Source: a virus. From it: a stretch of 29,198 bases of DNA. The stretch covers positions 1 to 29,198 of IMG/VR virus record IMGVR_UViG_3300030090_001955. One strand, written 5' to 3'. The position numbers and the translations under genes were made by a program. Under the pieces are notes generated by a model, which saw only the letters and a list, made by a program, of their open reading frames with translations, had not been told where the DNA came from and ran no database searches. Positions 1,263-29,079 of the stretch are shown piece after piece; positions within the stretch are counted from its first letter, which is position 1; the number at the start of each line of letters is the position of its first letter.

Positions 1263-1521
1263 AGGAACAGTATCCTCTGGGTCTATCGGGATCTAAAACA
1301 TCTTCCCGATTTAGGTGTCCTTCTAGGTACAAGGCTCGTTCTACATGGTCTAGGGTGTACAGGTTTCCAGTTTTTGCATAGATAGCTTGTCGAATATAGA
1401 ACACATCTGATTTAGGAATATGAAGTCTTTGTACTTTACTAGGTTTGTTTTGACTAACCGCTTCGTAGAACTCATCTAGGACGTTTTCAGATGAATATAG
1501 TTTTACTTTATTTTTACTCAT
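1240..1521 (-). CDS. Hypothetical phage protein, first gene of the leftward operon
   Basis: 93 aa from ATG at 1521; a TTG at 1527 is in frame but there is no reason to prefer it. Sequence features: KVKLYSSENVLDEFYEAV, then a basic segment KVQRLHIPKSDVFYIRQAIY, then LDHVERALYLEGHL. No cysteines, no membrane segment; mixed helical, mildly charged. I do not recognise a domain. It is the first gene behind the strong minus-strand promoter at 1641-1669, with a leader of roughly 110 nt containing the operator-like palindromes. No good Shine-Dalgarno is visible ahead of the ATG. Confidence 0.65.
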   Translation of the reverse strand: MSKNKVKLYSSENVLDEFYEAVSQNKPSKVQRLHIPKSDVFYIRQAIYAKTGNLYTLDHVERALYLEGHLNREDVLDPDRPRGYCSYDTRNAR

Positions 1522-1567
1522 TGTCAATAGTTAATTTAGGAAAGTTTACATTGGGTAGTTTTAACAT

Positions 1568-1649
1568 ATAGTTATAACTATTATTAAGTTAATATTATAT
1601 AAGTTATAACTTAATGTCTTGACTTAAAAGTCTTAACTTAGTTATACCA
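1568..1649. promoter_or_regulatory. Operator-like palindromes at the leftward promoter
   Basis: Two copies of the perfect palindrome AGTTATAACT lie at 1570-1579 (within a 14-bp palindrome, 1568-1581) and 1602-1611 (within a 12-bp palindrome, 1601-1612), 32 bp apart, about three helical turns. A third, imperfect copy (AGTTATACCA, 8 of 10 matches) at 1640-1649 covers the -10 element. This arrangement suggests a dimeric repressor; no repressor gene was recognised in the window. Confidence 0.45.
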
Positions 1650-1669
1650 TGTTTTTTAGATTCTGTCAA
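1641..1669 (-). promoter_or_regulatory. Sigma70-type promoter for the leftward lysis operon
   Basis: On the minus strand TTGACA (1669-1664) is followed after exactly 17 nt by TATAAC (1646-1641): a perfect -35 and a 5/6 -10 at optimal spacing. The predicted start is near 1634, reading toward the first leftward gene at 1521. This fits use of host RNA polymerase. Confidence 0.7.
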
Positions 1670-2042
1670 GTCGAAAAATCCACTTCTGTGTATTTGCACA
1701 TACATATATACTGTATATGGGGGGGTGTCCCACGCACTATCACGCGCGTAGGCGGATTCTCGGCAGCCACGCACACAAAATTTTTTGCTGTATTTCTGCG
1801 ATAGGTTTTTAAAAATGCGGTAATTCAAGCGGTTTATTATTTTGTTTTTACTGTATTTCTAAACTAATTATTTATTCGTTGAGTCTATTTCATGATCAAA
1901 AAAAGCATACCCTACCGACTCCGCGTGTTTATCCAAAAAATATCTACAATGGCCACACTACTATTTATAAATAGTTGGTAGACAATAACCGCACCAAAAG
2001 AAAAAACTGGACTCTTGCGTTATTTTTTGAGACACTTGTCCT
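1670..2042. other. Divergent non-coding region with GC-rich island
   Basis: I see no gene I can support here. Contents: a GC-rich block at about 1719-1776 inside otherwise very AT-rich DNA, starting with seven G and carrying an 8-bp direct repeat CCACGCAC (1730-1737, 1767-1774); a 10-bp direct repeat CTGTATTTCT (1788-1797, 1851-1860); a 14-bp palindrome CTATTTATAAATAG (1961-1974). It separates leftward late genes from rightward early genes, so it probably holds promoters and operators, and possibly an origin or attachment site. Confidence 0.5.
1943..1971 (+). promoter_or_regulatory. Possible rightward early promoter
   Basis: TCTACA (4/6) at 1943-1948, 17-nt spacer, TATAAA (5/6) at 1966-1971, the latter inside the palindrome CTATTTATAAATAG. 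It is the best candidate I found ahead of the early cassette starting at 2112, but the match is moderate and AT-rich DNA gives chance hits. Confidence 0.3.
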
Positions 2043-2111
2043 ATGATAAATATTAACCAACATTTAGCACTTAATGATTCGCTTTATGTATCAACTATTG
2101 GAGAAAACAAA

Positions 2112-2561
2112 ATGAACACTTTTGAAAAAATCGAAAACGCAATATCAACCGCTACTGTTAATGGTAATTTTAATTCTGATCTTATTGAGGATAAAGAGTT
2201 GAGAAGACTCGCGTTATTAACCTACATCAATAAAACAGTTAAGCAGAATCCAGACTCCGCATTGCGCGAATACCAAACTGCGGACGCATACGTCTATTCT
2301 GAAGTAGCGCATTATGATCATGATCAAAAGGAGAAGACTCAAAAAGCGGTCAAGCTTGACTCTTCTACTATTATCCTTGGTGGAAAAATTGCCTTGGTTA
2401 TCGAAAAAAGTGATAGCTATATTTTAGGAAAATTCGACAATCCAACATTTTCCGATAAACCATATTTTACTATTGGTTATTTCGATGACTCATATTTTGG
2501 CGGTCACTATGATTTATCACTAGTGGACGCGACTAATGATTTTGTAAATCGTAACAAGTAA
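2112..2561 (+). CDS. Unknown early protein, 149 aa
   Basis: Start chosen at ATG 2112 because GGAGAAAACAAA precedes it; the same 16-nt leader recurs exactly before the gene at 3111. An upstream in-frame ATG at 2043 lacks a ribosome site. Residues 1-50 are helical and charged (MNTFEKIENAISTATVNG, ELRRLALLTYINKTVKQNPD); the C-terminal third is rich in Asp, Phe, Tyr and Gly (PYFTIGYFDDSYFGGHYD) and looks beta-rich. No cysteines, no membrane segment, overall acidic. I recognise no family. As first gene of an early cassette with unusual base composition it may act in host takeover or anti-defence, but that is inference. Confidence 0.75.
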   Translation: MNTFEKIENAISTATVNGNFNSDLIEDKELRRLALLTYINKTVKQNPDSALREYQTADAYVYSEVAHYDHDQKEKTQKAVKLDSSTIILGGKIALVIEKSDSYILGKFDNPTFSDKPYFTIGYFDDSYFGGHYDLSLVDATNDFVNRNK

Positions 2562-2603
2562 TTGAGTTTTAATTTTAACCTTCCATACTTACGAGGTGAA
2601 AAC

Positions 2604-3047
2604 ATGGAAAAACAAATTTTAAAATCAGGTTATAACGTAGTCGGTAAAAGAGTTTATACAATGGTTAATAGTTCTCAAATTATTAATCCGCTATTTCGCA
2701 AGCTTTACGAAATGGATGATTTAAACGAAACTCAAATATTACGTTTAATCCAGACTGAGTATAAGCCAGTTAGAGTCCGCACTAATAAAGATCTCAAACC
2801 AAGTGAGATTATTATTAACGGAGTAAAAACCGCTAATAAATTTGATATATGGATTACTAGCGGTAAAAGATCAAAAGAGGGATTCTTTGTGATCAGAACT
2901 GGAGTCAATGTTTACTATTTCGCGAACTACATTAGAAATAATAAACCGCGTAATTACCCTTACACATCTTTTAAAGCTTTTCAGGATTTACGAAAAGACT
3001 CAAAAAAGTTTGGTAAGTTTGTGACTAGTATTTTAAGAGTAGCTTAA
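2604..3047 (+). CDS. Unknown early protein, 147 aa, basic
   Basis: Start at ATG 2604, preceded by GAGGTGA at 2593-2599; an in-frame TTG at 2562 directly abuts the previous stop and has no ribosome site. The protein is basic. Segments: KSGYNVVGKRVYTMVNSS, a helical part PLFRKLYEMDDLNETQILRL, then alternating beta-like stretches DIWITSG, GFFVIRTG, NVYYFANYI, and a helical Lys-rich end AFQDLRKDSKKFGKFVTSIL. No Cys and no membrane segment. It could bind nucleic acid on charge grounds, but no domain is recognised. Followed by a perfect 10-bp hairpin in the 63-nt gap to the next gene. Confidence 0.75.
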   Translation: MEKQILKSGYNVVGKRVYTMVNSSQIINPLFRKLYEMDDLNETQILRLIQTEYKPVRVRTNKDLKPSEIIINGVKTANKFDIWITSGKRSKEGFFVIRTGVNVYYFANYIRNNKPRNYPYTSFKAFQDLRKDSKKFGKFVTSILRVA

Positions 3048-3056
3048 ACAATAACA

Positions 3057-3090
3057 GCGGAGTCTAGTACATAAGGATATTAGACTCCGC
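3057..3090 (+). other. Perfect 10-bp RNA hairpin between early genes
   Basis: GCGGAGTCTA (3057-3066) pairs without mismatch with TAGACTCCGC (3081-3090) around a 14-nt loop. No T-run follows, so it is not a standard rho-independent terminator. It lies directly before the GGAGAAAACAAA leader of the next gene, suggesting mRNA protection, processing, attenuation, or a DNA inverted-repeat site. Each arm contains the GASTC motif enriched in this cassette. Confidence 0.65.
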
Positions 3091-3110
3091 ACCATTTCGG
3101 AGAAAACAAA

Positions 3111-3212
3111 ATGATAATAGATAGTTTAAAATTTTTAGTATTCGTAATATTACCGCTTGGAATCTTGTTAGCTATTCCCGAACAGTTAGCACCGCATACA
3201 CTAGGAGTTTAA
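3111..3212 (+). CDS. 33-aa single-span membrane microprotein
   Basis: The start has the leader GGAGAAAACAAA seen before the 149-aa gene, which strongly supports translation. The product MIIDSLKFLVFVILPLGILL followed by AIPEQLAPHTLGV is one N-terminal hydrophobic helix (about 7-22) with a short polar tail. Unknown role; early membrane peptides of this size are often involved in superinfection exclusion or host membrane interference, but nothing in the sequence shows which. Confidence 0.65.
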   Translation: MIIDSLKFLVFVILPLGILLAIPEQLAPHTLGV

Positions 3213-3216
3213 GAAA

Positions 3217-3384
3217 ATGGATTTACTACATTTAATTTATTCAAGCAATTTTCTTTTAACATATGCAACAATAACCGCTGTTTTAATTGTGATAATGGTA
3301 GTTATAAACGTTTATGATTATTACACTATTCAAAAAAGATTTAATGATATTGAAAAGAAATATAAAGATAAGAGGAGTCAATAA
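3217..3384 (+). CDS. 55-aa membrane-anchored microprotein with charged tail
   Basis: ATG at 3217, four bases after the previous stop; the TAA overlaps the next ATG (TAATG). A hydrophobic helix spans about residues 11-32 (NFLLTYATITAVLIVIMVVI) and is followed by a Lys/Asp/Glu-rich cytoplasmic-type tail IQKRFNDIEKKYKDKRSQ. The geometry suggests a single-span anchor with an amphipathic helix. No recognised family. Probably translated with the flanking genes. Confidence 0.65.
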   Translation: MDLLHLIYSSNFLLTYATITAVLIVIMVVINVYDYYTIQKRFNDIEKKYKDKRSQ

Positions 3385-4091
3385 TGCCTTTAGATTATAC
3401 AAATCTTGAAAACACTATTTATAAAAAGAGTATTAAGAATTTATCTAATTATAAATACAATGTAATTAAACCTAGTAAGAATAAAAAACTAGGCAGTAAT
3501 AAAAAAGCGATAGTTAAAAAAGGCAGTTTTAAAGACTACCGCATGTATACTTTGACTCTTGAAGAACGCGCAACGTGTCCTAAATCATGTTTCCATTGGT
3601 CTACATGTTTTGGAAATAATATGCCTTTCGCGCATAGAATATCACACTTTAACCAAGATCTATTAGAACAAAAAATAATTAGCGATTTAGATTTATATTG
3701 CTCTAAACAATTTGGAGTCTTATTGCGGACTCATGTACTAGGAGATTTTTTTAATATTCGTTATGTTCTATTTTGGGAGTCTATGCTTAATAAATATCCT
3801 AACCTTGCGCTTTATGGTTATACTGCTTATTTGCCAGAAGACTCAAACAAACAATATTCGGAAATAGGTATTGAGATAAAACGATTAGTTAAAAAGTTTG
3901 GTAATAGATTTGCAATAAGGTTTTCTAATTCTTTTAAAGAATCCTTTTCCGCTAATAGTACCGATATAATGAAAATGGTAAAAGGCGAGTCTATAGTTTG
4001 TCCTGAACAAACCAAACAAACTGATAATTGTACAACGTGCGCTTTATGTTGGGATTGTCCAAGTAAAAAGATTTTATTTATAACGCATTAA
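3384..4091 (+). CDS. Cys-rich putative Fe-S or zinc protein (resembles phage GP88-type proteins)
   Basis: 235 aa, with GAGGAG at 3372-3377 before the ATG. Nine cysteines: C65-x3-C69-x5-C75 near the N-terminal third (TCPKSCFHWSTCFGNNM), C106, C206, and a C-terminal C216-x2-C219-x2-C222-x2-C225. The centre holds LLRTHVLGDFFNIRYVLFWE and LALYGYTAYL, which recall the H-x-x-GDF...W...YT pattern of phage GP88-type proteins, themselves somewhat radical-SAM-like. The cysteine spacing suggests one or two metal clusters. Lys-rich N-terminus (residues 14-50). Last gene of the early cassette, followed by a terminator. Enzymatic function unknown; the family link is from memory and moderate. Confidence 0.7.
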   Translation: MPLDYTNLENTIYKKSIKNLSNYKYNVIKPSKNKKLGSNKKAIVKKGSFKDYRMYTLTLEERATCPKSCFHWSTCFGNNMPFAHRISHFNQDLLEQKIISDLDLYCSKQFGVLLRTHVLGDFFNIRYVLFWESMLNKYPNLALYGYTAYLPEDSNKQYSEIGIEIKRLVKKFGNRFAIRFSNSFKESFSANSTDIMKMVKGESIVCPEQTKQTDNCTTCALCWDCPSKKILFITH

Positions 4092-5188: not shown

Positions 5189-5520
5189 GAGCAATACTTA
5201 TAGACCCATTTGCCAAAGAGATCACAGAAGTTGACTACGATGGCGATTATAAAAAGATATATGACCTCATTGATTGTAAGACATTTGATGTGGTCAACGT
5301 CCCAAGCGGTAACGATGGCATCTACGTTGATGACGAGGGATTGTATGCACCGAAAAAAGCATGGTTTACCTATCGATTCAATGCCCACCCAATGCACCAG
5401 AATATACCATTAGTGAACAAAGCATTGGTTGTGGGTTGCGATGAAGAGGGCAACTCGACAGAAACGACAGATACTGTCAATGCCATCAAAGGGCGAATCA
5501 CTTGGGGATTGTTAAGATGA
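5185..5520 (+). CDS. DUF3846-like protein
   Basis: 111 aa. MRAILIDPFAKEITEVDYDG, then IYDLIDCKTFDVVNV, a DGIYVDDEGLYAPKKAWF segment, and near the end NKALVVGCDEEGNS. This order (Ile-Asp-Pro start, an acidic YVDDEG loop, a final alvvG-D-eG strand) is that of the DUF3846 family spread among phages and plasmids; function unknown. ATGA overlap upstream, and its own TGA overlaps the next ATG. No membrane segment. Confidence 0.7.
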   Translation: MRAILIDPFAKEITEVDYDGDYKKIYDLIDCKTFDVVNVPSGNDGIYVDDEGLYAPKKAWFTYRFNAHPMHQNIPLVNKALVVGCDEEGNSTETTDTVNAIKGRITWGLLR

Positions 5521-5720
5521 TGATGTTTAAAAATGAATTACCACTAGATCACACTAGAAGTATAGAGTTCATAATCGATATTTGGACAAAGGAGATACAA
5601 GAAGAAAATAGAGATCGTGACATGGGAGTCGGTTGGGACTCTTGTAATGAAACCGCATGGCGAGAACTTGTATGGTGGTTAGAAGACTATGGTTTGGAGT
5701 TCGTAGAAGAAGATGCCTAA
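5517..5720 (+). CDS. Small acidic hypothetical protein, 67 aa
   Basis: Three consecutive ATG codons (5517, 5520, 5523) follow the previous stop; the first overlaps it in ATGA form and was taken. A longer TTG-started reading (5502) lies inside the previous gene. The product is rich in Trp and acidic residues (FIIDIWTKEIQEENRD, GWDSCNETAWRELVWWLEDY, ending FVEEDA). Soluble, helical; no known family. The acidic, Trp-rich character is reminiscent of inhibitor-type phage proteins, which is only a guess. Confidence 0.6.
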   Translation: MMMFKNELPLDHTRSIEFIIDIWTKEIQEENRDRDMGVGWDSCNETAWRELVWWLEDYGLEFVEEDA

Positions 5721-5886
5721 AGTATATTACAAAAAGGTAAAACCCTCGAAACCGCGTAACCCAATGTTTGTGCGTAGGGCAACTGTATCCATCAAAGATA
5801 AGAGGGAGAAGGTTGCCAAGCGCAGACACGAACACGAGATGTTTCAAGCAAAACTTTTAAGGAAGGAGCTAAAAGATGGGGAATAA
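5713..5886 (+). CDS. Small basic hypothetical protein, 57 aa
   Basis: MPKVYYKKVKPSKPRNPMFV, then a Lys/Arg-dense helix (RREKVAKRRHEHEMFQAKLL-like stretch). Its ATG lies 5 nt before the previous stop and its end overlaps the next gene by 11 nt, so both neighbours support it. Very basic, no Cys, no membrane segment; nucleic-acid binding is plausible. Related short Arg/Lys proteins occur in marine phages, but I cannot name a family. Confidence 0.6.
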   Translation: MPKVYYKKVKPSKPRNPMFVRRATVSIKDKREKVAKRRHEHEMFQAKLLRKELKDGE

Positions 5887-6085
5887 TAAACCATTACCAA
5901 ATGACGTTAGCAACGCTTTGTTCAATATCCTTGATGTTGAGAAAACAATAAAAGCTAATGGACTTTGTAACACTAAGCGTGTGCATGGTGGCACAGACAA
6001 TGAAGACACGCTTGGAGATTTAGTAGAAGAGTTAGTATATTTTATAACTGAATTAGATAATATTTATGGAGCGCACAATGAGTAA
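5876..6085 (+). CDS. Hypothetical protein, 69 aa
   Basis: AAGGAG at 5860-5865 precedes the ATG. MGNNKPLPNDVSNALFNILD followed by a helical C-terminus TLGDLVEELVYFITELDNIY. Soluble and acidic, one Cys. No recognised domain. It overlaps the genes on both sides (11 nt upstream, 8 nt downstream). Confidence 0.65.
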   Translation: MGNNKPLPNDVSNALFNILDVEKTIKANGLCNTKRVHGGTDNEDTLGDLVEELVYFITELDNIYGAHNE

Positions 6086-6242
6086 AGAATTTGATCACGA
6101 CTGGTTTGACAGTCATGTTATTATAGACTTGGGTGGATTTAATAACAAAGAAGAAAAGAATAAAGCAGAGGAGACTCTGAAAGATAAACTAAAAGAAAAA
6201 TTAGAAAAGGAGTTCAAGAGTGACAGCCAGAGAGATGATTAA
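6078..6242 (+). CDS. Hypothetical charged protein, 54 aa
   Basis: ATG inside the end of the previous gene. MSKEFDHDWFDSHVIIDLGG, then a long Glu/Lys helix (NKEEKNKAEETLKDKLKEKL) that could form a coiled coil. No family recognised. Overlaps the next, GTG-started gene by 23 nt. Confidence 0.55.
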   Translation: MSKEFDHDWFDSHVIIDLGGFNNKEEKNKAEETLKDKLKEKLEKEFKSDSQRDD

Positions 6243-6390
6243 GATACTGATAAAGTTAGACGATCTAAATACCAAGATAGATTTTAGATTACCAATAAAA
6301 TTCTATGGTCAAGATCAAGATTTACTTTTGCGTTATAATTGTGTATTCTACGAAAACGATTCGATAATTATAGGTTTTAAGGAGAGATGA
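6220..6390 (+). CDS. Hypothetical protein, 56 aa, GTG start
   Basis: GTG at 6220 is placed by AAAAGGAG at 6206-6213. The product MTAREMIKILIKLDDLNTKI...LPIKFYGQDQDLLLRYNC... ends at TGA one base before the methyltransferase ATG. Mixed alpha/beta, soluble; no family recognised. An in-frame ATG at 6235 is an alternative start. Confidence 0.5.
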   Translation: MTAREMIKILIKLDDLNTKIDFRLPIKFYGQDQDLLLRYNCVFYENDSIIIGFKER

Positions 6391-6391
6391 T

Positions 6392-7567
6392 ATGTATAAA
6401 GTGGTGGCAAGTTTTTTTGATGGTTTCTCTGGTACGATGATTGCTTTAGACAAGCTAGGCATTACACCAGACGAGTACCATGCTTTTGAGATTGACCCTT
6501 ATTCAAGTGCGGTTAGTCGATACAATTATCCTAACATCATTCGTCATGGCGATGCACGAAATTGGGAAGTTCTCAAGGGTAAGAAGATTGATCTATTGGT
6601 TGCAGGTTTTCCATGTCAAAGCTATTCGGTTGCAGGATTGCGGAAGTTCCAAGAAGATCCACGAGATATGTCTAAGGTTTTGCTTGATGCTATTAAAGGG
6701 TTAGACGTAGATAAGATATTGATAGAGAATGTTGCATCTATGCCAAAGGTTTGGAAAGACTATTTTACTGAGATGTTTCAGCGTGTTTTTCCAGACGTTG
6801 TATGCCACGAGATAAATAGTTCTTTAAAAACTGCTCAATCAAGAAAGAGATTATATTGGACAAACATTGACTTTGATTTAATGACAGATATGGGGATAGT
6901 GATGGACTCCATTCTTGAAGATGGTGCTATATCTGATCGTGACAAGTCGTTGTGTATTGATGCCAATTACTTCAAGGGGGGTAATATGCAGATGTATTAT
7001 GGCAAGTCCAAACGTCAGATAGCTTACGTTGACGAGCCTACTACTGGTTGTAAGCAAGTTGGTGTCGCAGATATCAAAGGCTATGATATCATTCGCAGAG
7101 TATACAGTCGTTATGGCAAAGCACCATCGTTGACCACTATGCAAGGCGGTCACAGAGAACCAAAGGTTGAGTGCGGTAGGATTATCAATCGCAAGATCAA
7201 CCCTAAGACTGGCAAGAGAGATGACTACAACCCAGACATACAGCCACAATCACGAGTAGAGTTGCGGTCAGACAGTAAGACCAATACACTATCCACAGTA
7301 CAGAAAGACAATGTAGTGGTTCGTAATTGGGAAAACGTCAACCCAGAGCAGTTCTATTGGAGAGCCTTGACTCCTCTTGAGTGCGAGAGGTTGCAGACTG
7401 TTCCAGACAAGTATACTGAGTATGGTAGATATGTTGAGAAAGATAAAGACACGGGATTTCGTGTACATAAGAACAAACCCATCAGTAAGTCACAGCGATA
7501 CAAGATGCTTGGCAATGGATTTACTGTAGATGTAATAGCGCATATACTGAAAGGAGTAGACGCATGA
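6392..7567 (+). CDS. DNA (cytosine-5) methyltransferase
   Basis: 391 aa with the ordered C5-MTase motifs: motif I SFFDGFSGTMIAL (8-19, SAM binding), motif II around FEIDPY, motif IV GFPCQSYS with catalytic Cys75, motif VI IENV (111-114), motif VIII QSRKRLYWTN (149-158), a variable target-recognition region of about 170-310, motif IX RALTPLECERLQTVPD, and motif X GNGFTVDVIAHI (about 374-385). The FFDG start resembles the DNMT3-like subgroup common in phages. It would methylate phage DNA to 5-methylcytosine, probably evading host restriction; target sequence unknown and no partner endonuclease is next to it. ATG preceded by AAGGAG at 6379-6384; ATGA overlap downstream. Confidence 0.9.
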   Translation: MYKVVASFFDGFSGTMIALDKLGITPDEYHAFEIDPYSSAVSRYNYPNIIRHGDARNWEVLKGKKIDLLVAGFPCQSYSVAGLRKFQEDPRDMSKVLLDAIKGLDVDKILIENVASMPKVWKDYFTEMFQRVFPDVVCHEINSSLKTAQSRKRLYWTNIDFDLMTDMGIVMDSILEDGAISDRDKSLCIDANYFKGGNMQMYYGKSKRQIAYVDEPTTGCKQVGVADIKGYDIIRRVYSRYGKAPSLTTMQGGHREPKVECGRIINRKINPKTGKRDDYNPDIQPQSRVELRSDSKTNTLSTVQKDNVVVRNWENVNPEQFYWRALTPLECERLQTVPDKYTEYGRYVEKDKDTGFRVHKNKPISKSQRYKMLGNGFTVDVIAHILKGVDA

Positions 7568-20090: not shown

Positions 20091-20116
20091 AGAGGGGCGA
20101 AAGCCCCTTTCTTTTT
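20091..20116 (+). terminator. Hairpin terminator between convergent operons
   Basis: AGGGGC (20093-20098) pairs with GCCCCT (20103-20108) around a GAAA tetraloop, extendable by further pairs, followed by TTCTTTTT. It ends the rightward operon and also lies just before the stop of the leftward virion operon, so it may act in both directions, better rightward. Confidence 0.85.
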
Positions 20117-23100
20117 AATTAGTAGTTCTCTTAATATAATCGTCACTACCGTCCATATAAGCTTCCAAAAACTCAAGCTGTTTATAATTTAGTTCATCTA
20201 AATCCTGATCGTACTTCAGGTCTTTTATAGCTTTTCGTATTTCAGAATCTCTATACTTTTTATCAATACTGTACATAGCCAGTAGTTCTCTATCTTCTAT
20301 GATTATAGAGCTTTTTATGTCTCTCTTAACATCTGCTTTAGCTAATCGTAGTATAGCATCTATCTTTTGTTTTCTTTGTTTTGTATTAAATTTCTTAAAC
20401 TCGTCTGACGTTATTGTCTGTTTAGCTCTTCTCTCAAGATGAAAGAATAATTTACTATTTAACTTAGCATCTGCTTCTGGTACACCACCAAAAAACCCAA
20501 CTCTCCAGTTTGGCTTTCCTATAATGTTAAACATTCTTTCAGTATAGGACTGTTTTCCAACCTCTCTATACCCAACAACTTTACCTATACCTGTAGGCTT
20601 ATCCAAGTCTGTGGTAGCCATTTGTTTTTCGTTCATTTCTAGACCAAAGAGATTGTCAAAAACTCTATCTACATAACGTATAGAGTTGTTAAAAAATTTA
20701 TTGCCTTGTCTTCTGTCTGCGTTTACAAAGTTTTCTCCCTCTGCAAAAGCTACAACTTGATTGATAGGATCTAAAGGTCTGGTTGCACCTGCTATCGCGG
20801 TTTGTCCTATATCTCCAGTAATTCTACCAAAAGTATCCATGACACCCTCTAAGTCTCCGCTTACCGCGGCATGAGCTAAGTTTGATATACCTCTCTCATA
20901 CACACCAAGACTTCTATCTGCTTGACCTAAACCAAACACATCCCAAAAAACTTTCCACATCTCTCTAGGTGGCTCTTCTCCTCTTTGTCTATGCGCTTCA
21001 AGTCGGGCAACATATTTAAATAGTGATGCAGGATAGTCATACTGCTTAGTTACAAGAGTAGCACCGCTTCTTTGTTGATCCCAAGCTAATCCCTCATCTA
21101 TGGCTTCTTTTTCTTCTTCTGCTTTTGCCAAAATCCAAGAGATTCCTACTGCACCCTTAATAAACTTTTCTGTGGCTTCTCCCTCTACGTACTTATGTCT
21201 TCGGGTCTGCTCTATATATTCATCAATTCTGTCGGTAGGTATGCCCTTTTCTTCCATGACCTTTCGTATCTTTGGGTCAGTGTACATCTTTTCAATTTTG
21301 TTTCTTCCTTTGTTCCAAGTGCTATGTATAGCTCCTGCACCACTGTAGTCCATCATGAAGGCTACGGTGTTGTTGAAGAACTGACCAAAAGGCATTGACA
21401 ATCCTATAATAGGTATCTTTCTAAATTCCTCAATAAAATTAGCGGTCTTTTGTACATAGGAAGCTTCTTTGCCTGTTTTACCAAACTTCTTACCAAAGAC
21501 TGCTTTCATAGTATCATCCACAGCCCTTCCTTCTATGTTTATATAGTCCTGTTTACTCATCAGGGTGTCTAACTCTCCAGACTCTAGCAGTTCGTTATAA
21601 GACTTCCCATACTTTATTCTCATCTGCTTGTCTATATTGTACATAAACTCTATAGACTTTGTGATAACGTCTTGTGCTTTTGTAGCGTACAAAGTCTGAA
21701 AGAAGTTAGTATACTTTTCTCCATACTTTAGCACACCCTCATCTGGATTAAATCCTAGCTTTTTTACCACCTCTTCGGAGTCCACACCTCCTGCTATGTA
21801 CCGCATCATCTTGTCCATGACTTCAGGACGAGCATCCAAGTAAGACATAAAAGACTCATGCGTAGTGTCATAGTCTAATATATTTCTAACCTTTTGTCTT
21901 TGAAGACCCATAAGGTTTTTAGCTTTTTGTAGATTATCCCCTTTGCCTCTCATTACATCCATAAAGGCTCCCGGCAAATACAGAGCAGCCCTAGTCATAT
22001 CTGTAACTGATTGTAGAGAAGAATAGTTAAACCAACCTATCACGTTTAACGCGGTTGTACCGGGGTTTGTAACTAGGTTTCGTATAATTGTTCTCTGAAA
22101 GTATTCACCTTTTCTGGCTAGAACTTGTAGCTGATCCTCTCGTAAAGGTTGTAATGCTTTTTCCAGACCTTTTTCTGCATCTAACTCAAGTTTACCCTTT
22201 GCCCCAAGTATCTTGTCTCCATGCTGAAGCAGTTGTAATCTTCTACCTGCTTGACTAAAGTGTGCAGCAAATGAGTCAGCAAACCATGTTAGGTAGTCAC
22301 TGTCTCTCATGCGTATTACACCATCTGCATCTCTTTTTATTGACTTATTATTATCTTGTAGCCACCTACTTATTTCTCCATCATAGTCAGGAAAACGCTT
22401 TCTAATATCTGCAGATTTTAGTGTTGCAACAAAAGTCCTCATGTCAGGTTCACTCATGTTCTGTATTATACCTGCAAGAAAACTACTAAAGCTGTCTACA
22501 TCTTTTCTACCACCCATTTGTTTGAGTTGCTCTGCTGTGGATTTTTCATAGCGTATACCCATCCTGTTTAGAACATGGACTAGACCTTCAACGCCAAGAT
22601 GATCGTTACCAAACATAAAGTTTTCCCAAAAGGTATCTGCGGCATAAGTGTCATATCCTTTCATGTACTCTATCTGAGCTTTACCTTCTAAAGCACGTTC
22701 TTTTGTAGTAAACTGTATGCCCTTCTTCATTGTGTCAAAGAAATCATTGAAGTGGGTGCTAAATGTGTTTTTACTTTCTTTAAGAGCTTTTAGTTTCTTT
22801 TCCTGCTCTCTTGCTATTACTTCGTCTATATCTCCTTTTGGTGGCTTACCTAAGATATTTCTATTAGCTATAGTCTTGCCTGTCACTGATATAGCAGGAG
22901 CTATCATGCCAAACATAGCAGACAAACCTGTCTGAAATGCACTATAGTCTTCCTGTTGCATTGACTTTATCATACCGTTCTGATATGCCATATCAACCAA
23001 GATTGCTGAACTGGTATCGGTTAGTGCTGTTACACCAAGTTCTCTGCTTATAAGTTTTTTAGACTCTTGTTCCTTAAACTCTTTTAATGCGTCCTTTGCA

Positions 23101-23777
23101 AACCTACGTTCCCCCTCTTTTGCTACTTTTTTTATAGCCTGTCCTTCAGCTACGTCTGCAGTAATATCTTTACCACCCTCTTTTAACAACTTGTCTTTAG
23201 CGGCTTGTATAGCTTTTTTCTTTAAAACACTAGCACCTTTTTTTGCTGCTAGAGATACAGCAAGTTTACCTGCACCCAAACTTATTATGTTTGCAGGATC
23301 TATTATGGCTGCCCTAGCGTAGTCTGTAACACCGTCTAATCTTTCTAAGAAAGTGCTTCTCTTACCTGTAAAGATGTTCTCCATATTGTCAAATACAGCA
23401 TAGGCTTCCCCTGCAGACTGACGCTTATCGTCATCCGCTTTGTTTAGCCACGCTACTTCTCCAAGGGTAACAACAGACTGACCTGCACTGAACCTTCTCA
23501 TGTTATTAACATAAGCTTCAACTAGCTCTTCATCGGTATAGCCTGACATTTCATCTATACCAAAGCGGTCATCCATGTATCTTTTTATTGTATCAAAGGT
23601 TTCTTCGTCTTCAAGCAAATCGCTTTTGGTCAGCTTTGGTGCGTCTGCCTTTAAAGCTTTCTTTTGTTTTAGCTCGTTTTCATAGTCTTCAAAGCTAGAA
23701 CCTGTACCTGAAGGCACGGCAGTGGGTTTGTTTACAGTGGTTAAAGACTGCTCATAATCTTCAAAGGTAGAAGCCAT
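20115..23777 (-). CDS. Very large internal virion protein (probable DNA-ejection protein)
   Basis: 1220 aa from ATG 23777, preceded by AGGA 8 nt away; an ATG at 23807 lies inside the previous gene. The N-terminus has the motif FEDYE twice (5-9, 29-33). Mostly helical and charged; hydrophobic or amphipathic stretches near 560-580 (NLVTNPGTTALNVIGWF) and near 790-810 (MPFGQFFNNTVAFMMDYSGA). It contains no lysozyme motif. Size, helical nature and position at the end of the virion operon match the large internal core proteins of podoviruses (as T7 gp16), which form the channel for DNA entry. Function by analogy only. Last gene before the convergent terminator. Confidence 0.65.
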   Translation of the reverse strand: MASTFEDYEQSLTTVNKPTAVPSGTGSSFEDYENELKQKKALKADAPKLTKSDLLEDEETFDTIKRYMDDRFGIDEMSGYTDEELVEAYVNNMRRFSAGQSVVTLGEVAWLNKADDDKRQSAGEAYAVFDNMENIFTGKRSTFLERLDGVTDYARAAIIDPANIISLGAGKLAVSLAAKKGASVLKKKAIQAAKDKLLKEGGKDITADVAEGQAIKKVAKEGERRFAKDALKEFKEQESKKLISRELGVTALTDTSSAILVDMAYQNGMIKSMQQEDYSAFQTGLSAMFGMIAPAISVTGKTIANRNILGKPPKGDIDEVIAREQEKKLKALKESKNTFSTHFNDFFDTMKKGIQFTTKERALEGKAQIEYMKGYDTYAADTFWENFMFGNDHLGVEGLVHVLNRMGIRYEKSTAEQLKQMGGRKDVDSFSSFLAGIIQNMSEPDMRTFVATLKSADIRKRFPDYDGEISRWLQDNNKSIKRDADGVIRMRDSDYLTWFADSFAAHFSQAGRRLQLLQHGDKILGAKGKLELDAEKGLEKALQPLREDQLQVLARKGEYFQRTIIRNLVTNPGTTALNVIGWFNYSSLQSVTDMTRAALYLPGAFMDVMRGKGDNLQKAKNLMGLQRQKVRNILDYDTTHESFMSYLDARPEVMDKMMRYIAGGVDSEEVVKKLGFNPDEGVLKYGEKYTNFFQTLYATKAQDVITKSIEFMYNIDKQMRIKYGKSYNELLESGELDTLMSKQDYINIEGRAVDDTMKAVFGKKFGKTGKEASYVQKTANFIEEFRKIPIIGLSMPFGQFFNNTVAFMMDYSGAGAIHSTWNKGRNKIEKMYTDPKIRKVMEEKGIPTDRIDEYIEQTRRHKYVEGEATEKFIKGAVGISWILAKAEEEKEAIDEGLAWDQQRSGATLVTKQYDYPASLFKYVARLEAHRQRGEEPPREMWKVFWDVFGLGQADRSLGVYERGISNLAHAAVSGDLEGVMDTFGRITGDIGQTAIAGATRPLDPINQVVAFAEGENFVNADRRQGNKFFNNSIRYVDRVFDNLFGLEMNEKQMATTDLDKPTGIGKVVGYREVGKQSYTERMFNIIGKPNWRVGFFGGVPEADAKLNSKLFFHLERRAKQTITSDEFKKFNTKQRKQKIDAILRLAKADVKRDIKSSIIIEDRELLAMYSIDKKYRDSEIRKAIKDLKYDQDLDELNYKQLEFLEAYMDGSDDYIKRTTN

Positions 23778-23778
23778 A

Positions 23779-25020
23779 CTAAATTCCTGCTCGTAATTTT
23801 TGTACATACTCAGGAGATGCCACTACTGGATTACCTCCCTTAGGAGGATTGCTAACCATGTATTCTCCTGCTTCCAACTCTCCATTCTTTAGTTTCTCTA
23901 TTACGCTTTCTATCGTAGGTAGTGTACTAGCATCCGTGCCACCTGTGGGGGGCTGTTGTCCCTTATCCTCTAGCGCAATATTCGCTACTTTGGCAGCCTC
24001 TAGTATGTTCTGTCTACCAAACTTATTAACAGCATCTTCATCATTTAGTAGTAGTTTAAGTGCTTCTGCTCTAAGAGGCTTTGACAACAATATAGACCTA
24101 GTGTAATTAAACAAATCGTTTTCCTGCATTATTAAATCTTTTAAAACTTTAGCACCATACTCTTTTTCCATCTTGCCTACAATATCTGGTCTACCCTCAT
24201 TATACGCTTTTTGATCTAATTCTAGTTCTGTAGCTTCCGCGTTTGCTTCGTCTCTCTCTTTCTTTCCACTAGCTGTCGCTCCTATTCTTCGTAGTTCTTT
24301 TATCCTAGCGTCAAGAGATGTGCCAACATTTAATGCTATAGCATCTTTAACATTTTTTTCTTTTCTAGCGTCAAAAGGAGTTGGGAAGTAACTGGTATCT
24401 AACACACCTGTCGCTGCATTTATAGGTACATACTCACCGCCTGTTGACATTCTGTATAGATCGCCCACACTCAGATCACCTACCATCATCTCATCTAGTT
24501 TAGCTTGTTCTTTTCTGTGAGCGTCAACACCCATGAGAGAGAATATTATGTTAGTCTCCATATCTGATGGATCTTTTTTCTCTTTGTCTAGGTTTGTGTT
24601 TCTAACAACAGTACCTGCCGCTTCTTTAGCCGCCTCTTCAAAAGTCATGCCCTCTTTTTCACCAACTAAGTCTAGGTTGCCTATCAAGCCGTTTATTCTT
24701 TGTGGTGTTATTTTTACATTCGGGTATTTACGTGAGAAATTAGTTATGAAAGTATCGGCAGCAAGTAACAACTCAGGGTTGGTAACTAGCTTTGCTATGT
24801 TCTGCTTTGTTTCATCTGTTTCTCCACCAAGCTTACTCAGTTTGTTAGCAATGTTTAGATACTTCTGGTAATTAGCTTGTCTCTTTTGATAAGTCTTTAG
24901 ACCTACAGTTTCAGCTATACGCTCTTTTCTCTTTCGTTCTTCTCTAGCTTCGGCTCTTCTTTCGGTAATGTTTTTAGTCATACCCTCCAAGAACGCGGTA
25001 GCAAAACTTTTAAAAGACAT
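23779..25020 (-). CDS. Virion-associated helical protein, 413 aa
   Basis: GGAGAGGTGA precedes the ATG, which overlaps the previous stop by one base (TAATG). N-terminal Arg/Glu-rich coiled-coil segment (NITERRAEAREERKRKERIA), helical middle, a region with GDLYRMSTGGEYVPINAATG, and a flexible Pro/Gly stretch near 360-375 (DKGQQPPTGGTDAST). No catalytic motif and no membrane segment. Between two structural genes in an overlapping operon, so probably a structural or internal core protein (comparable in place to T7 gp15). The identification is by context. Confidence 0.6.
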   Translation of the reverse strand: MSFKSFATAFLEGMTKNITERRAEAREERKRKERIAETVGLKTYQKRQANYQKYLNIANKLSKLGGETDETKQNIAKLVTNPELLLAADTFITNFSRKYPNVKITPQRINGLIGNLDLVGEKEGMTFEEAAKEAAGTVVRNTNLDKEKKDPSDMETNIIFSLMGVDAHRKEQAKLDEMMVGDLSVGDLYRMSTGGEYVPINAATGVLDTSYFPTPFDARKEKNVKDAIALNVGTSLDARIKELRRIGATASGKKERDEANAEATELELDQKAYNEGRPDIVGKMEKEYGAKVLKDLIMQENDLFNYTRSILLSKPLRAEALKLLLNDEDAVNKFGRQNILEAAKVANIALEDKGQQPPTGGTDASTLPTIESVIEKLKNGELEAGEYMVSNPPKGGNPVVASPEYVQKLRAGI

Positions 25021-25595
25021 TATTCACCTCTCCTTGCCATTAAACCCACTGGCTTTTCCTCCACCGTAGCCTCTTCTTCTTGTTCCTCAGGAGCTTCTAC
25101 AGGCTCTTCTTTTCTATTTTCTTCTAAAAATTCCTGTGTTTGCTCTAATATCTCTGTACCCTCATCAGGTGTTTCCATTTTGTCTATGGCTCTCTGAAGT
25201 CGGGACACAAGCATTTGCTTCTCTTTCTTATTCATTTCTTCTTTCTTGTCTTTTGCGTGTAATCTTATATTCTTTAGACCGCCTAATGTAGCCTGAGCGT
25301 GGACAAGTTCCACAAGAATAGGATGTATTAGAAGACTTATATCTATAGAATGTATGCCCTCCATGACACCATTACTAAGTATAGACTTGATAAGAAGGTC
25401 TAAAGGGAAGCCTTCATCTAGTGCAGTAAATATATCATCTGAAATCTGTGGTTGACTAAGACTATTCATGTAGAAAGCCATAGCGTCTTCTACTTTATCT
25501 ATCTGTGGTGGTCTTTCCCAAGCGTATCCTCTTGGCTCTGTAGTTAGAGATTGTCCCGGAATAGGAGCATCAAATGTTACGTTATTCTCTATCAT
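25020..25595 (-). CDS. Conserved virion-region protein, 191 aa
   Basis: Starts with NVTFDAPIPGQSLTTEPRGY then AWERPPQIDKVEDAMAFYM; the P-G-Q-S-L-T-x-E-P...W-x-x-P-P opening recurs in a protein next to internal virion genes in many marine podoviruses, as I remember. The middle is hydrophobic-helical without clear spans (LLIHPILVELVHAQATLGG); the end is acidic (about 150-185, EEP/EEE-rich). ATGA overlap upstream. Structural or assembly role inferred from neighbours. Confidence 0.65.
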   Translation of the reverse strand: MIENNVTFDAPIPGQSLTTEPRGYAWERPPQIDKVEDAMAFYMNSLSQPQISDDIFTALDEGFPLDLLIKSILSNGVMEGIHSIDISLLIHPILVELVHAQATLGGLKNIRLHAKDKKEEMNKKEKQMLVSRLQRAIDKMETPDEGTEILEQTQEFLEENRKEEPVEAPEEQEEEATVEEKPVGLMARRGE

Positions 25596-25984
25596 GCTTT
25601 CCTCACTATTACTTTACCCTCTAATCTCTCTGTGTTGTTTGCATTACAAGCTCTGAACTCAGAAAGACACATACCATACATCGCAGCTATTTCATCATCC
25701 TCTGCGGTGGGATCTACAGTTTTCACTGTGTACTCCTCTAAGTTTTCCTCGTAATAGTCTCTAAAATCTTCTTCTAAAAGGTCTGTGGTTAAAAATGCCA
25801 TCTTTTTTATGGGCGACAACTCTTCCGTGTCAGGTGTTTCTTTATCTGCCACTCTCTTAGGTGCAGCCCCAATACCCATCTTTAGTATATCATCTATTTC
25901 TTGCTTCTCGCCTGTTTTATCGTAGACATCTTTACCTTTTAGATACTGTCCTAATGTAGCTCCTGCTTGTTCAAACCAACTCAT
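25592..25984 (-). CDS. Virion-region hypothetical protein, 130 aa
   Basis: ATG 9 nt after the stop of the 1028-aa gene. MSWFEQAGATLGQYLKGKDV, then an acidic middle (LLEEDFRDYYEENLEEYTV), and a C-terminal MYGMCLSEFRACNANNTERL with two Cys. No motif recognised; it recurs, to my memory, beside the PGQSLT-type gene in related phages. Overlaps that gene by ATGA. Probably a structural or assembly factor. Confidence 0.6.
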   Translation of the reverse strand: MSWFEQAGATLGQYLKGKDVYDKTGEKQEIDDILKMGIGAAPKRVADKETPDTEELSPIKKMAFLTTDLLEEDFRDYYEENLEEYTVKTVDPTAEDDEIAAMYGMCLSEFRACNANNTERLEGKVIVRKA

Positions 25985-25992
25985 GTTCTATC

Positions 25993-28900
25993 CTATCCGA
26001 AAAAGTATTTAGGGTTATCAAATATACCACCAACTATAGCACTGGCAAAACCACCGAGTGCAGACATAAAAGCGTTGTCACCCGATACCTCTGACTTTAG
26101 ATCATTTAGTATTAGCTCTTGTCTTCTACCTGCGGCACTTTCTGCAGAAGCAAACGCATAAGCCATCAAGTCACGCTCTTTCTGCCATATCTCATCAAGA
26201 CCTTTTTGTGTGAGGTTGTTTGCTTGTAGTGCGTTCTGTCTGTTCGCATCATTTAGGGCAGCATTGTTTATTGTAGCTAACTGCTGTCGCCACTGTGCGT
26301 TAGCCTGTGCTATGATAAGCTGATTTTGAGCGTTAAACTGGTCACGTTGATTGTTTATTTGCTCCTGAAAGATCTCTAATGCGTTGTCTTCTTTAGCATT
26401 AAACTGGTTCATAGCATTAATCTGAGCAGAGTTAAACTGCTGTACCTGCGTTCTAAGGTTAGCAAAGAACTGATTAGTCTGATTTTCACTTGAAGCGTTA
26501 AACTGTGACGCGGCATTTTGTGCTGAAGCGTCTGTAAATATACTTTGTATAACCGACTGGTTCTTAAACATATCTGCTTGCTGTGATATATCTAAGTTAC
26601 GCATATCCATTTGCAGGAAGTTCATTGCGTTCTGCACTGCAGCTTGTTGTCTGTTGCTGAGATTAGCCATATCAGCCTGTGCTATTGCAGAAGCCTGAGC
26701 CATGATCACGGCTTGTCTATTACTGAGGTTTGTTAAATCTACAGTCTGTGCTAGTCTGGCATTTTCAAGAGCTATCTGTTGCTCTGCAGAGAAGTTCATG
26801 TTAGCTATGTCAGATATTTTAGAAGCGTTTTGAACTCTTGCTTGAAACGTCTGATCAAACTCCATGCCAAGGAATGTAGCTCTTTGTTGGGCTGCCAACA
26901 TTGCACGTTGTTGTCTATTACTGAGATTTTGTGCCTCAAATTGTGCTACTGTCTGTGCGTCTTGTAGAGCAATAGGTATTGCGCTTTCCATAGCAGCCTG
27001 TACGATAGCTTGTCCTGCCATAGAACTTGCAGCCATGCCTCTCTGTGCCATGATAGCGGTGGCTTGACGCATAGCTCCTGCAGCCCAAGGCGGTGGTGTA
27101 CCACCCTCAAAGTCTGCCATTAGATTTGTTAATTGACCTTGAACTGTGGCGGCAGATGATGGCGAACCAGTAGCTGCCTCAATACCTTCTAAAAACTGAG
27201 AGGCTTTTTCTGCGTTGGCTGCCCCTGATACAAGCTCTCCTTGCTTCAAAGCTCGTGCAGATGGTGATGTTACCTGTTGTCCTGTGCCTTGAGCGGCTAA
27301 TACATCTCTTACATTAAGGTCTTGTGTTGCCTGTTGTTGTGCATTTATGACAGCGTTCTTTGATATTTCACCAAAACGTTCTTGTGGCACATAATTTCTT
27401 ATATCGTTTACTGTCGTGGTTACATCTGCTTTAGAAGTAACCATAGGATCAGGACCTTTTGCAATAACCGTCTGTGCTGTTGTACCTTCTGCTGTTATGT
27501 CCCCTGATACCTGCCCCTCTTTAGGTCCTATTATTTGTCCTGTAGTTTCTACAATCTTATCTACAGGCTGTCGTGTTATTAAATCAGCAGGAGCAGATAC
27601 AGTAGCTCCCACGGCTTCTGCAGCAGTAGGTATGGCAGATGATTGAAATGCTTGAGAAGCGTTAGCTACGGCAGCCTCGGCTCGTGTTATCTTAGGCATA
27701 GCCTGATTAATCTGCTCTATTATTTTGTTTCTAGTAGCTTCATCCCCTATGGGTGTATTAGCTAGTTGTTGCTGTAATGCAGATACCTTTCCTTGCTCTT
27801 CTGATAGTTGTGCTTGTGCCTCGTTCAGTTTAGACTTAACGTCTGCTACTATCGGTTGTATAGTGGTAGGCGGTGTTGGTAGTGGATCTCTTCTTTGTGG
27901 TGGAGGTGGAGGAGTAGGGAAAGGAAGAAAGGTAGGTTCTCGAAACCTACTACCTAAACTCTCACCTGTCTCAGCATCATACAAGGCATCACTTCTTAGA
28001 TCACCTACTACCATCCTACCGAATTTTTCACTATAGAAAGGTGTTTGATCACTAATAAACGCAGGGGATCGTCCTTTTCTTTGTGGTAAGGCAAGTAAAC
28101 CTGTATCTACAACTTTCTGACCTCCTCTAAAATAGGGATTAGGACCTTCACCTCTAATAAACTCTTTGTCAGGATTTAACCTAAATATATCGTCCATGCC
28201 TCCTTCTCTGACAGACAATGCTCTTTGGCTTTGTCTTTGTTCATCCATACCAAAGCCTTTTCCTTCTGTTGTTAATAAAGAACCACGAGGAGCAACTTGT
28301 GAGCTAGGATCTGGTACAAGTCTCTGTCCTCCTGCGATAAGAGAGTTAGGGTCTGCTTCGTATTTAAATCCTTTAGGAGGGTTACTATAAGGGTTTTTTC
28401 CCTGCTCATACATCATACTACCAAACAATCCTCTTGGGCTTTGTCTTTGTGTTGCTAAGTCAACTTGTTGACGTTGACGCATATCAGCAGGTTCTGTTCT
28501 TGGAGGTGGTGGTGTATAACCCTCTATAGGCTTGCCTTGTTTGTCAAACCCCGGCAAAGGCATAAATCCCGGTGTACCTAAGCCTCCACCAGTTATGTAG
28601 TTTCCTTGATCGTCTACTAGAGCAGGTCCTGAGTCGTATCCTATATGTCTACCATCTTTATCAATAACCATACCCATAGACGCTCTAACAGGTCCTCCCT
28701 GTTGATATCCTTGCAATGGATCAGCAGTGGTAGGATAAACCATTGTTGGTCTACCGCGAGTTTCTATCACGTTGTCTAGATATCGTTGTACTTCAGGAGA
28801 CTTAGGCTCTGTGCTTGCGGATCTCCTGACCGCAGCATCAAATAGTTTGGTAGACCTGTCATCAAAGCCTCCTACAGAACCGCCATATTGAAAGGCTTTT

Positions 28901-29079
28901 ACTTGAGAGTCCATCAACATCTGCTCTGCTTTGTCTGACATGGCACTAAGGTATACTGCCGCCTCACGACTATTTGGTTTCAGCCCTTTTGCTGTTAGTA
29001 GTTTTTCTACTTGTTGCGGTGTAAAACCTGCAAACACTCTCATGTTTGTCTTTTGTTTAACTGTTGGTTCTTCTATCAT
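25993..29079 (-). CDS. Large virion structural/internal protein with 11-residue repeats, 1028 aa
   Basis: Domains from the sequence: 1-62 helical (FTPQQVEKLLTAKGLKPNSR); 63-410 low-complexity, rich in Pro, Gly, Gln and Arg (YQQGGP, a poly-Pro run near 390-394, repeated QRQS and N-P/S-x3-GGQ motifs); 411-470 Ala/Gln coiled coil; 471-700 mixed; 718-937 Asn/Gln/Ala-rich helix with 11- and 22-residue periodicity; then a Gly-rich hydrophobic end (FMSALGGFASAIVGGIF). Position in the virion operon and composition suggest an internal virion or DNA-ejection protein. No enzyme motif. Its ATG overlaps the previous stop (ATGA). Product name inferred; the repeat structure is observed. Confidence 0.65.
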   Translation of the reverse strand: MIEEPTVKQKTNMRVFAGFTPQQVEKLLTAKGLKPNSREAAVYLSAMSDKAEQMLMDSQVKAFQYGGSVGGFDDRSTKLFDAAVRRSASTEPKSPEVQRYLDNVIETRGRPTMVYPTTADPLQGYQQGGPVRASMGMVIDKDGRHIGYDSGPALVDDQGNYITGGGLGTPGFMPLPGFDKQGKPIEGYTPPPPRTEPADMRQRQQVDLATQRQSPRGLFGSMMYEQGKNPYSNPPKGFKYEADPNSLIAGGQRLVPDPSSQVAPRGSLLTTEGKGFGMDEQRQSQRALSVREGGMDDIFRLNPDKEFIRGEGPNPYFRGGQKVVDTGLLALPQRKGRSPAFISDQTPFYSEKFGRMVVGDLRSDALYDAETGESLGSRFREPTFLPFPTPPPPPQRRDPLPTPPTTIQPIVADVKSKLNEAQAQLSEEQGKVSALQQQLANTPIGDEATRNKIIEQINQAMPKITRAEAAVANASQAFQSSAIPTAAEAVGATVSAPADLITRQPVDKIVETTGQIIGPKEGQVSGDITAEGTTAQTVIAKGPDPMVTSKADVTTTVNDIRNYVPQERFGEISKNAVINAQQQATQDLNVRDVLAAQGTGQQVTSPSARALKQGELVSGAANAEKASQFLEGIEAATGSPSSAATVQGQLTNLMADFEGGTPPPWAAGAMRQATAIMAQRGMAASSMAGQAIVQAAMESAIPIALQDAQTVAQFEAQNLSNRQQRAMLAAQQRATFLGMEFDQTFQARVQNASKISDIANMNFSAEQQIALENARLAQTVDLTNLSNRQAVIMAQASAIAQADMANLSNRQQAAVQNAMNFLQMDMRNLDISQQADMFKNQSVIQSIFTDASAQNAASQFNASSENQTNQFFANLRTQVQQFNSAQINAMNQFNAKEDNALEIFQEQINNQRDQFNAQNQLIIAQANAQWRQQLATINNAALNDANRQNALQANNLTQKGLDEIWQKERDLMAYAFASAESAAGRRQELILNDLKSEVSGDNAFMSALGGFASAIVGGIFDNPKYFFG
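26269..26928 (-). repeat. Coded 22/11-residue (hendecad) repeat array in the 1028-aa protein
   Basis: Residues 718-937. NLSNRQ-type units start at 718, 762, 784, 806 and 828, all multiples of 22 apart. Further on, Phe occurs at exactly 860, 871, 882, 893, 904 and 915, every 11 residues, with Ile at 937. Eleven-residue periodicity predicts a long amphipathic helix or a right-handed coiled coil. Confidence 0.85.

Follow-up and report, generated by a model that had tools for sequence, protein, structure and literature searches.

Several described DNA-ejection systems bear on the locus analyzed here. The pilot protein H of phiX174 contains hendecads in its DNA-translocating tube, and 18 of the 23 inward-facing residues of that tube are Asn, Gln or Arg (PMC7354561). 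A gp14-gp15-gp16 operon has been described for podophages (PMC8954989), and in Pseudomonas phage DEV the helical ejection proteins gp73, gp72 and gp71 form a pore and a tube (PMC10925440). HMO-2011-type phages have been described as being among the most abundant and widespread marine viral groups (PMC9038755). No account of how these phages deliver their DNA was found in the literature searched.

The stretch of DNA analyzed here (the window) is a 29,198-base virus record. It encodes a family A DNA polymerase, a DnaB-type helicase and a B12-dependent ribonucleotide reductase on the strand opposite the structural genes, which is a gene trait of HMO-2011-type phages, and no capsid, portal or terminase genes were found within it. 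Based on its genes and their homologues, the window was assigned to an HMO-2011-type podophage. A C-5 cytosine DNA methylase (6392-7567) and a phage integrase (9113-10036) are also encoded. The minus-strand open reading frame at 25993-29079 yields a protein of 1028 amino acids (aa), of which about aa 510-1028, roughly the C-terminal half, are conserved, and the N-terminal half varies. Scans of the 1028-aa protein against Pfam and PHROGs gave no match, while a few of its relatives matched assorted families once or twice each. The following features were located in the gene.

25993..29079, minus strand: gene of the 1028-aa protein, HMO-2011 gp25 family
26932..27150, minus strand: conserved N-flank (ATVQGQL...PPWAAGAMR...RGMAASS...PIALQDAQ; aa 644-716, invariant alignment columns)
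26290..26976, minus strand: hendecad array of 20 units (aa 702-930)
26911-26928, minus strand: third NLSNRQ unit (aa 718-723)
26647..26730, minus strand: two NLSNRQ units at a spacing of 22 (aa 784-811)
26335..26502, minus strand: Phe ladder (aa 860, 871, 882, 893, 904, 915; aa 860-915)
26110..26292, minus strand: conserved C-flank beginning with WRQ/WRR (anchor 2), with conserved Trp and Arg (aa 930-990)
26020..26073, minus strand: Gly/Ala-rich hydrophobic tail AFMSALGGFASAIVGGIF (aa 1003-1020)

The six Phe residues originally predicted to form an exact 11-residue ladder are indeed present at these positions. A six-Phe run at a spacing of 11 did not occur in any of 200,000 shuffles of aa 717-937, nor did such a run at any period from 3 to 30 in 3,000 shuffles of the same segment. 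The NLSNRQ-type units that had been noted upstream were found starting at aa 718, 784 and 806, and an NLDISQ variant starts at aa 828; all intervals between them are multiples of 22. Autocorrelation of aa 680-960, the check that had been suggested for the repeat, gave peaks at 11, 22, 33 and 44 residues only (z of 5.8, 6.8, 5.0 and 5.0, respectively); the 11-residue period was absent from the two other stretches tested, aa 1-680 and 560-700. The repeat had been placed at 26269-26928, which correctly corresponds to aa 718-937, and had been estimated at about 220 residues. The period is real, but the array is longer than estimated, extending over about aa 702-958.

The array consensus is Q-[IM]-[AED]-[LQM]-[FA]-N-[AL]-[SQ]-N-[RE]-[QN]. 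Across the family, the ladder is one of Asn, which reaches about 60-80% at one repeat position among the larger length classes; at the neighboring position, Phe is the most frequent residue in some length classes. In the window protein, Phe at the ladder position is found mainly in the last third of the array. The Asn ladder, which lies at another position of the repeat than the Phe ladder, is the stronger feature of the two. Tandem Repeats Finder detected no tandem array in the DNA encoding the repeats, leaving just a few short, diverged repeat pairs. A recent tandem duplication of DNA was therefore rejected as the source of the repeats; the 11-residue period is old and maintained by selection acting on the protein.

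Homologues of the protein were found in phages of Roseobacter, SAR116, Pelagibacter, Rhizobium, Sinorhizobium, Pseudoalteromonas, Vibrio and Aeromonas, as well as in hundreds of virus contigs. The family is already present in public records, as hypothetical proteins, with the exception of one unannotated record and one record named "huntingtin". The latter, from Podoviridae sp. ctYwJ313 (1424-4015 of the examined stretch), probably owes its name to its Gln-rich sequence. HMO-2011 gp25 and its homologues share the flanks, the repeat and the neighboring genes with the window protein, which carries both flank signatures of the family (PxWA...RGM..SS...PIAxxDA and N.xWRx).

Array length was measured as the distance from the P of PIA in the N-flank (anchor 1) to WRR/WRQ, with both anchors located by profile columns. 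In 254 homologues, the distances were 151, 162, 173, 184, 228, 239, 305, 316, 317, 360, 371 and 426 residues. The comparison of repeat number among relatives, which had also been proposed as a check, showed that the distance equals 8 modulo 11 in 253 of the 254 homologues (11 lengths). The window protein follows the rule, with a distance of 228 (20 × 11 + 8). The lone outlier of 317, one residue too long, is on contig IMGVR_UViG_3300050343_000028; its extra residue may reflect an error of sequencing or assembly, or may be a real skip residue. Isolates and metagenome-assembled contigs contributed two more distances, 217 and 338 (19 and 30 repeats), both 8 modulo 11, for which the second anchor was placed by profile column without an intact WR motif. 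Overall, 13 of 14 distance values from more than 250 homologues belong to one class, and arrays in the family contain 13 to 38 hendecads. By our arithmetic, if lengths were free, ten further distinct lengths would all fall into one class of eleven with a probability of roughly 1 in 11^10.

In a 100-member tree based on the flanks alone, the repeat number changed at least 11 times and was stable inside clades. As the array changes almost only by whole units, the hendecad is structurally indivisible, as expected of a helix that keeps register with its neighbors. Such strict quantization predicts that insertions and deletions of 11 residues are tolerated and that those of other lengths are not, and it would make helix packing and conduit length accessible to genetics. 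The hendecad repeat also offers a simple sequence signature with which to find such proteins among hypothetical phage genes. We considered whether the array is a simple ruler of the host envelope; this was rejected, as the number of units is 14 in one lineage of Pelagibacter phages and 28 in another.

Several lines of evidence suggest that the array is alpha-helical. The array in the window contains 221 residues without Gly or Pro. Its helix propensity of 0.39 kcal/mol is close to that of the phiX174 H alpha-tube (0.41 kcal/mol) and unlike that of the P22 tailspike beta-helix (0.63 kcal/mol). Likewise, Gln makes up 18% of the array versus 19% of the phiX174 H alpha-tube, while the P22 tailspike has 13% Gly. 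Monomer structure prediction, another of the checks originally proposed, was run using AlphaFold2 with 78 sequences; it returned helix over nearly all of aa 686-1008, albeit at low confidence (mean pLDDT of 58, pTM of 0.24). A Foldseek search with this low-confidence helical model gave no meaningful fold match.

At 98.2 degrees per residue, the hydrophobic moment of the family had a mean z of 0.2 for the first harmonic and 5.0 for the second, and the z of the second harmonic exceeded 3 in 109 of 114 nonredundant family members; as the second harmonic corresponds to a period of 2.2 residues, the two-faced reading holds only if the array is helical. On an 11/3 helix, the angular order of repeat positions is Gln (0), Phe/Ala (4), Asn/Gln/Ala (8), Ile/Met/Ala (1), Asn (5), charged (9), charged (2), Ala/Leu (6), Gln/Asn (10), Leu/Met/Gln (3) and Ser/Gln (7). 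This order would place two hydrophobic seams between an amide face and a charged face, a pattern that fits helices packed between two neighbors, whether in a barrel, a tube or a layer. An angle of about 166 degrees separates the seams, which would also suit a flat layer or large ring. A count of tube subunits calculated from the seam angle (formally about 26) was dropped, as the error of the angle is estimated at some tens of degrees.

The gene of the 1028-aa protein is followed on the same strand by four further genes.

25592..25984, minus strand: open reading frame of 130 aa, no family match
25020..25595, minus strand: protein of 191 aa with the N-terminal motif PIPGxSLT..P...WExPP
23779..25020, minus strand: protein of 413 aa at the position of the middle (gp15-like) ejection gene, no family match
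20115..23807, minus strand: protein of 1230 aa at the position of the large (gp16-like) ejection gene

Nearly identical sets of phage records contained the hendecad protein and the PIPG protein. For the 191-aa PIPGxSLT protein, a helical domain was predicted confidently (mean pLDDT of 82, above 95 for about aa 30-110), and a fold search of the PDB with this model gave no match. In the isolates examined in full, the gene order was hendecad protein, small gene(s), PIPG protein, a protein of 300-800 aa and a protein of 800-1670 aa, after which most had genes on the opposite strand. This constant order was seen in phages of Vibrio, Aeromonas, Rhizobium, Sinorhizobium, Roseobacter, SAR116 and SAR11. 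The arrangement and the protein sizes are similar to those of the gp14-gp15-gp16 operon (PMC8954989), the first protein being an exception in size.

Peptidoglycan hydrolases are encoded in the cassettes of several relatives. In HTVC103P, a phage lysozyme domain lies at the C terminus of the large last protein (E of 8.5e-9); among the large last proteins, this domain was found in HTVC103P only, and none was detected in the 1230-aa protein of the window. The gene directly after the hendecad gene encodes a cell wall hydrolase in CRP-603 (E of 1.4e-23) and an SLT/tail-lysozyme-like protein in CRP-13 (SLT E of 1.5e-4). Together, the gene order and the hydrolases of relatives indicate that this is probably an ejection cassette. 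The original prediction had proposed a use of the hendecad helix in DNA ejection, and such a use is supported by the phase-locked repeat number, the helix-type composition and the gene neighborhood.

Other enzymes were also observed next to the hendecad gene. In Pelagibacter phage HTVC115P, gp46 (2905-3354 of the examined stretch), directly after the hendecad gene, is an HlyC-type lysine acyltransferase (PF02794, E of 1e-15). Pseudoalteromonas phage vB_Pun_Y3 has a distant relative (5512-7071 of the examined stretch) that shares the N-flank and has a weaker hendecad pattern; it is followed by a GNAT acetyltransferase gene (7079-7531), and the final gene of this cassette, about 10 kb long, is annotated as a DdrB-like ParB domain protein. 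Acylation of an ejection protein is a possible modification.

We propose that the 1028-aa protein is a component of the DNA-ejection apparatus in HMO-2011-type podophages and that its hendecad helices pack into the oligomeric tube of a DNA conduit, a tentative reading whose chances we place just short of even. The protein would probably act as a tube or core subunit that carries DNA through the bacterial envelope. In this model, aa 702-930 would make up one alpha-helix of 20 hendecads, continuous or nearly so and about 340 angstroms long at 1.5 angstroms per residue, and copies would stand side by side via the two opposite seams to build the tube. The lumen would be lined by the amide-rich face, with Gln, Ser and Asn at positions 0 and 7, and the charged face (positions 2 and 9) would point outward, while the hydrophobic positions 4/8/1, with the Phe ladder at 4, and 6/10/3 would hold neighbors and set the register. 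Asn at position 5, beside one seam, may help to hold neighbors and fix the register. The Gly/Ala-rich C-terminal tail, whose mean hydropathy is 1.65 in the window protein and exceeds 1.2 in 46 of 113 family members, is a candidate membrane-inserting segment that could anchor one end in a membrane. After adsorption, the protein would exit the head together with the other proteins of the cassette and form one section of the envelope conduit. The label "virion protein" that the original prediction gave to the product is presumptive, and the literature searched contained no proteomic evidence for the family in virions.

The main rival reading, which we regard as unlikely though worth serious consideration, is an internal core protein that remains in the head, where its long helices would form a ring or layer around the portal and organize the last turns of DNA, with no tube across the envelope. 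A large ring or flat layer would agree with the two opposite seams, the gene lies inside a probable ejection cassette, and DEV gp72 is a 200-angstrom ring around the portal prior to ejection (PMC10925440). However, the Gly-rich hydrophobic tail of some family members points to a membrane step, and the core proteins of T7 and DEV are themselves ejected, so that the difference from the tube reading is mainly one of final state. Less probable still is a tail rod or fiber made of a parallel two- or three-stranded right-handed coiled coil, one of the options originally raised. Hendecads are classic for fibrous coiled coils, such as NadA3 (PMC6191539), and the tail-fiber genes of HMO-2011 lie just upstream. 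In contrast, a dimer or trimer requires one hydrophobic face, and the family's null first and strong second harmonics disfavor it; moreover, the downstream neighbors are ejection-type genes with peptidoglycan hydrolases.

The same moments disfavor the second original option, an amphipathic 11/3 helix lying on the membrane. An 11-residue period is also known in such helices of the synuclein or apolipoprotein type, but the array has no one-sided hydrophobic face, is rich in Asn and Gln and contains few large hydrophobic residues, which makes this the least probable of the readings. A beta-solenoid with 11-residue coils, in which Asn and Phe would stack as ladders and alternate residues would point inward, is only marginally more credible and very unlikely. 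It was retained as a rival because hydrophobicity peaks most strongly at periods of 11/4 and 11/5 residues rather than 11/3; beta-helices typically show ladders of Asn and Phe, and whole-coil insertions and deletions would also produce the modulo 11 rule. However, Gly and Pro are nearly absent from the array and Ala, Gln and Met are abundant, its composition is that of the phiX174 H helix and unlike that of the P22 tailspike beta-helix, and AlphaFold2 predicted helix almost throughout, if with low confidence.

The proposed tube subunit shares with phiX174 H (PDB 4JPP), an alpha-helical DNA tube and DNA-ejection protein, its hendecads, Gln at positions 0 and 7 in matching register, and a nearly equal composition with almost no Gly or Pro. 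Indeed, H was the only tested ejection protein outside the family with a clear 11-residue period; none was found in T7 gp14, gp15 and the N-terminal part of gp16 or in P22 gp7, gp16 and gp20. The original statement that no described phage protein has this ladder was too strong as regards hendecads, which H possesses (PMC7354561), yet H has neither an Asn nor a Phe ladder nor an array of such length, as only three hendecads precede a transition and heptads. H also belongs to a single-stranded DNA phage, and the analogy is imperfect, as its hendecads (only 33 residues) were one-faced in the hydrophobic-moment test, whereas the window family is two-faced. A profile search of solved-structure (PDB) sequences gave no match for the family, to H or to any other structure, at E values up to 1.

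As in T7 (gp14/gp15/gp16) and P22 (gp7/gp20/gp16), the cassette consists of consecutive podophage genes of which the last is the largest, and T7 has a muralytic domain on its large last protein, as does HTVC103P, a relative of the window. However, the first protein has about 200 aa in T7 and P22 and 460-1028 aa in the hendecad family, and a profile comparison indicated that T7 gp14 is unrelated to the family (probability of <1%). A resemblance around "SSM" motifs was also dropped. As no homology to phiX174 H or T7 gp14 was found, the hendecad protein was not placed in either family. DEV is likewise a podophage whose helical ejection proteins gp73, gp72 and gp71 form a pore and tube, a tube being only proposed for the hendecad protein. 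It differs in that the profile search of solved structures gave no sequence match to its ejectosome and that the available part of its description mentions no hendecad array (PMC10925440). A search covering few subscription journals found no paper on this Asn/Phe hendecad repeat. It is conceivable, though we consider it rather less probable than the tube itself, that an ocean-abundant double-stranded DNA phage lineage uses a single protein, of a length that comes in 11-residue quanta (13 to 38 units, about 21 to 63 nm), to build its DNA conduit. Such a conduit would be an independent counterpart to the phiX174 H tube, and its hendecads, laddered with Asn and Phe, would pack along two seams in a new way.
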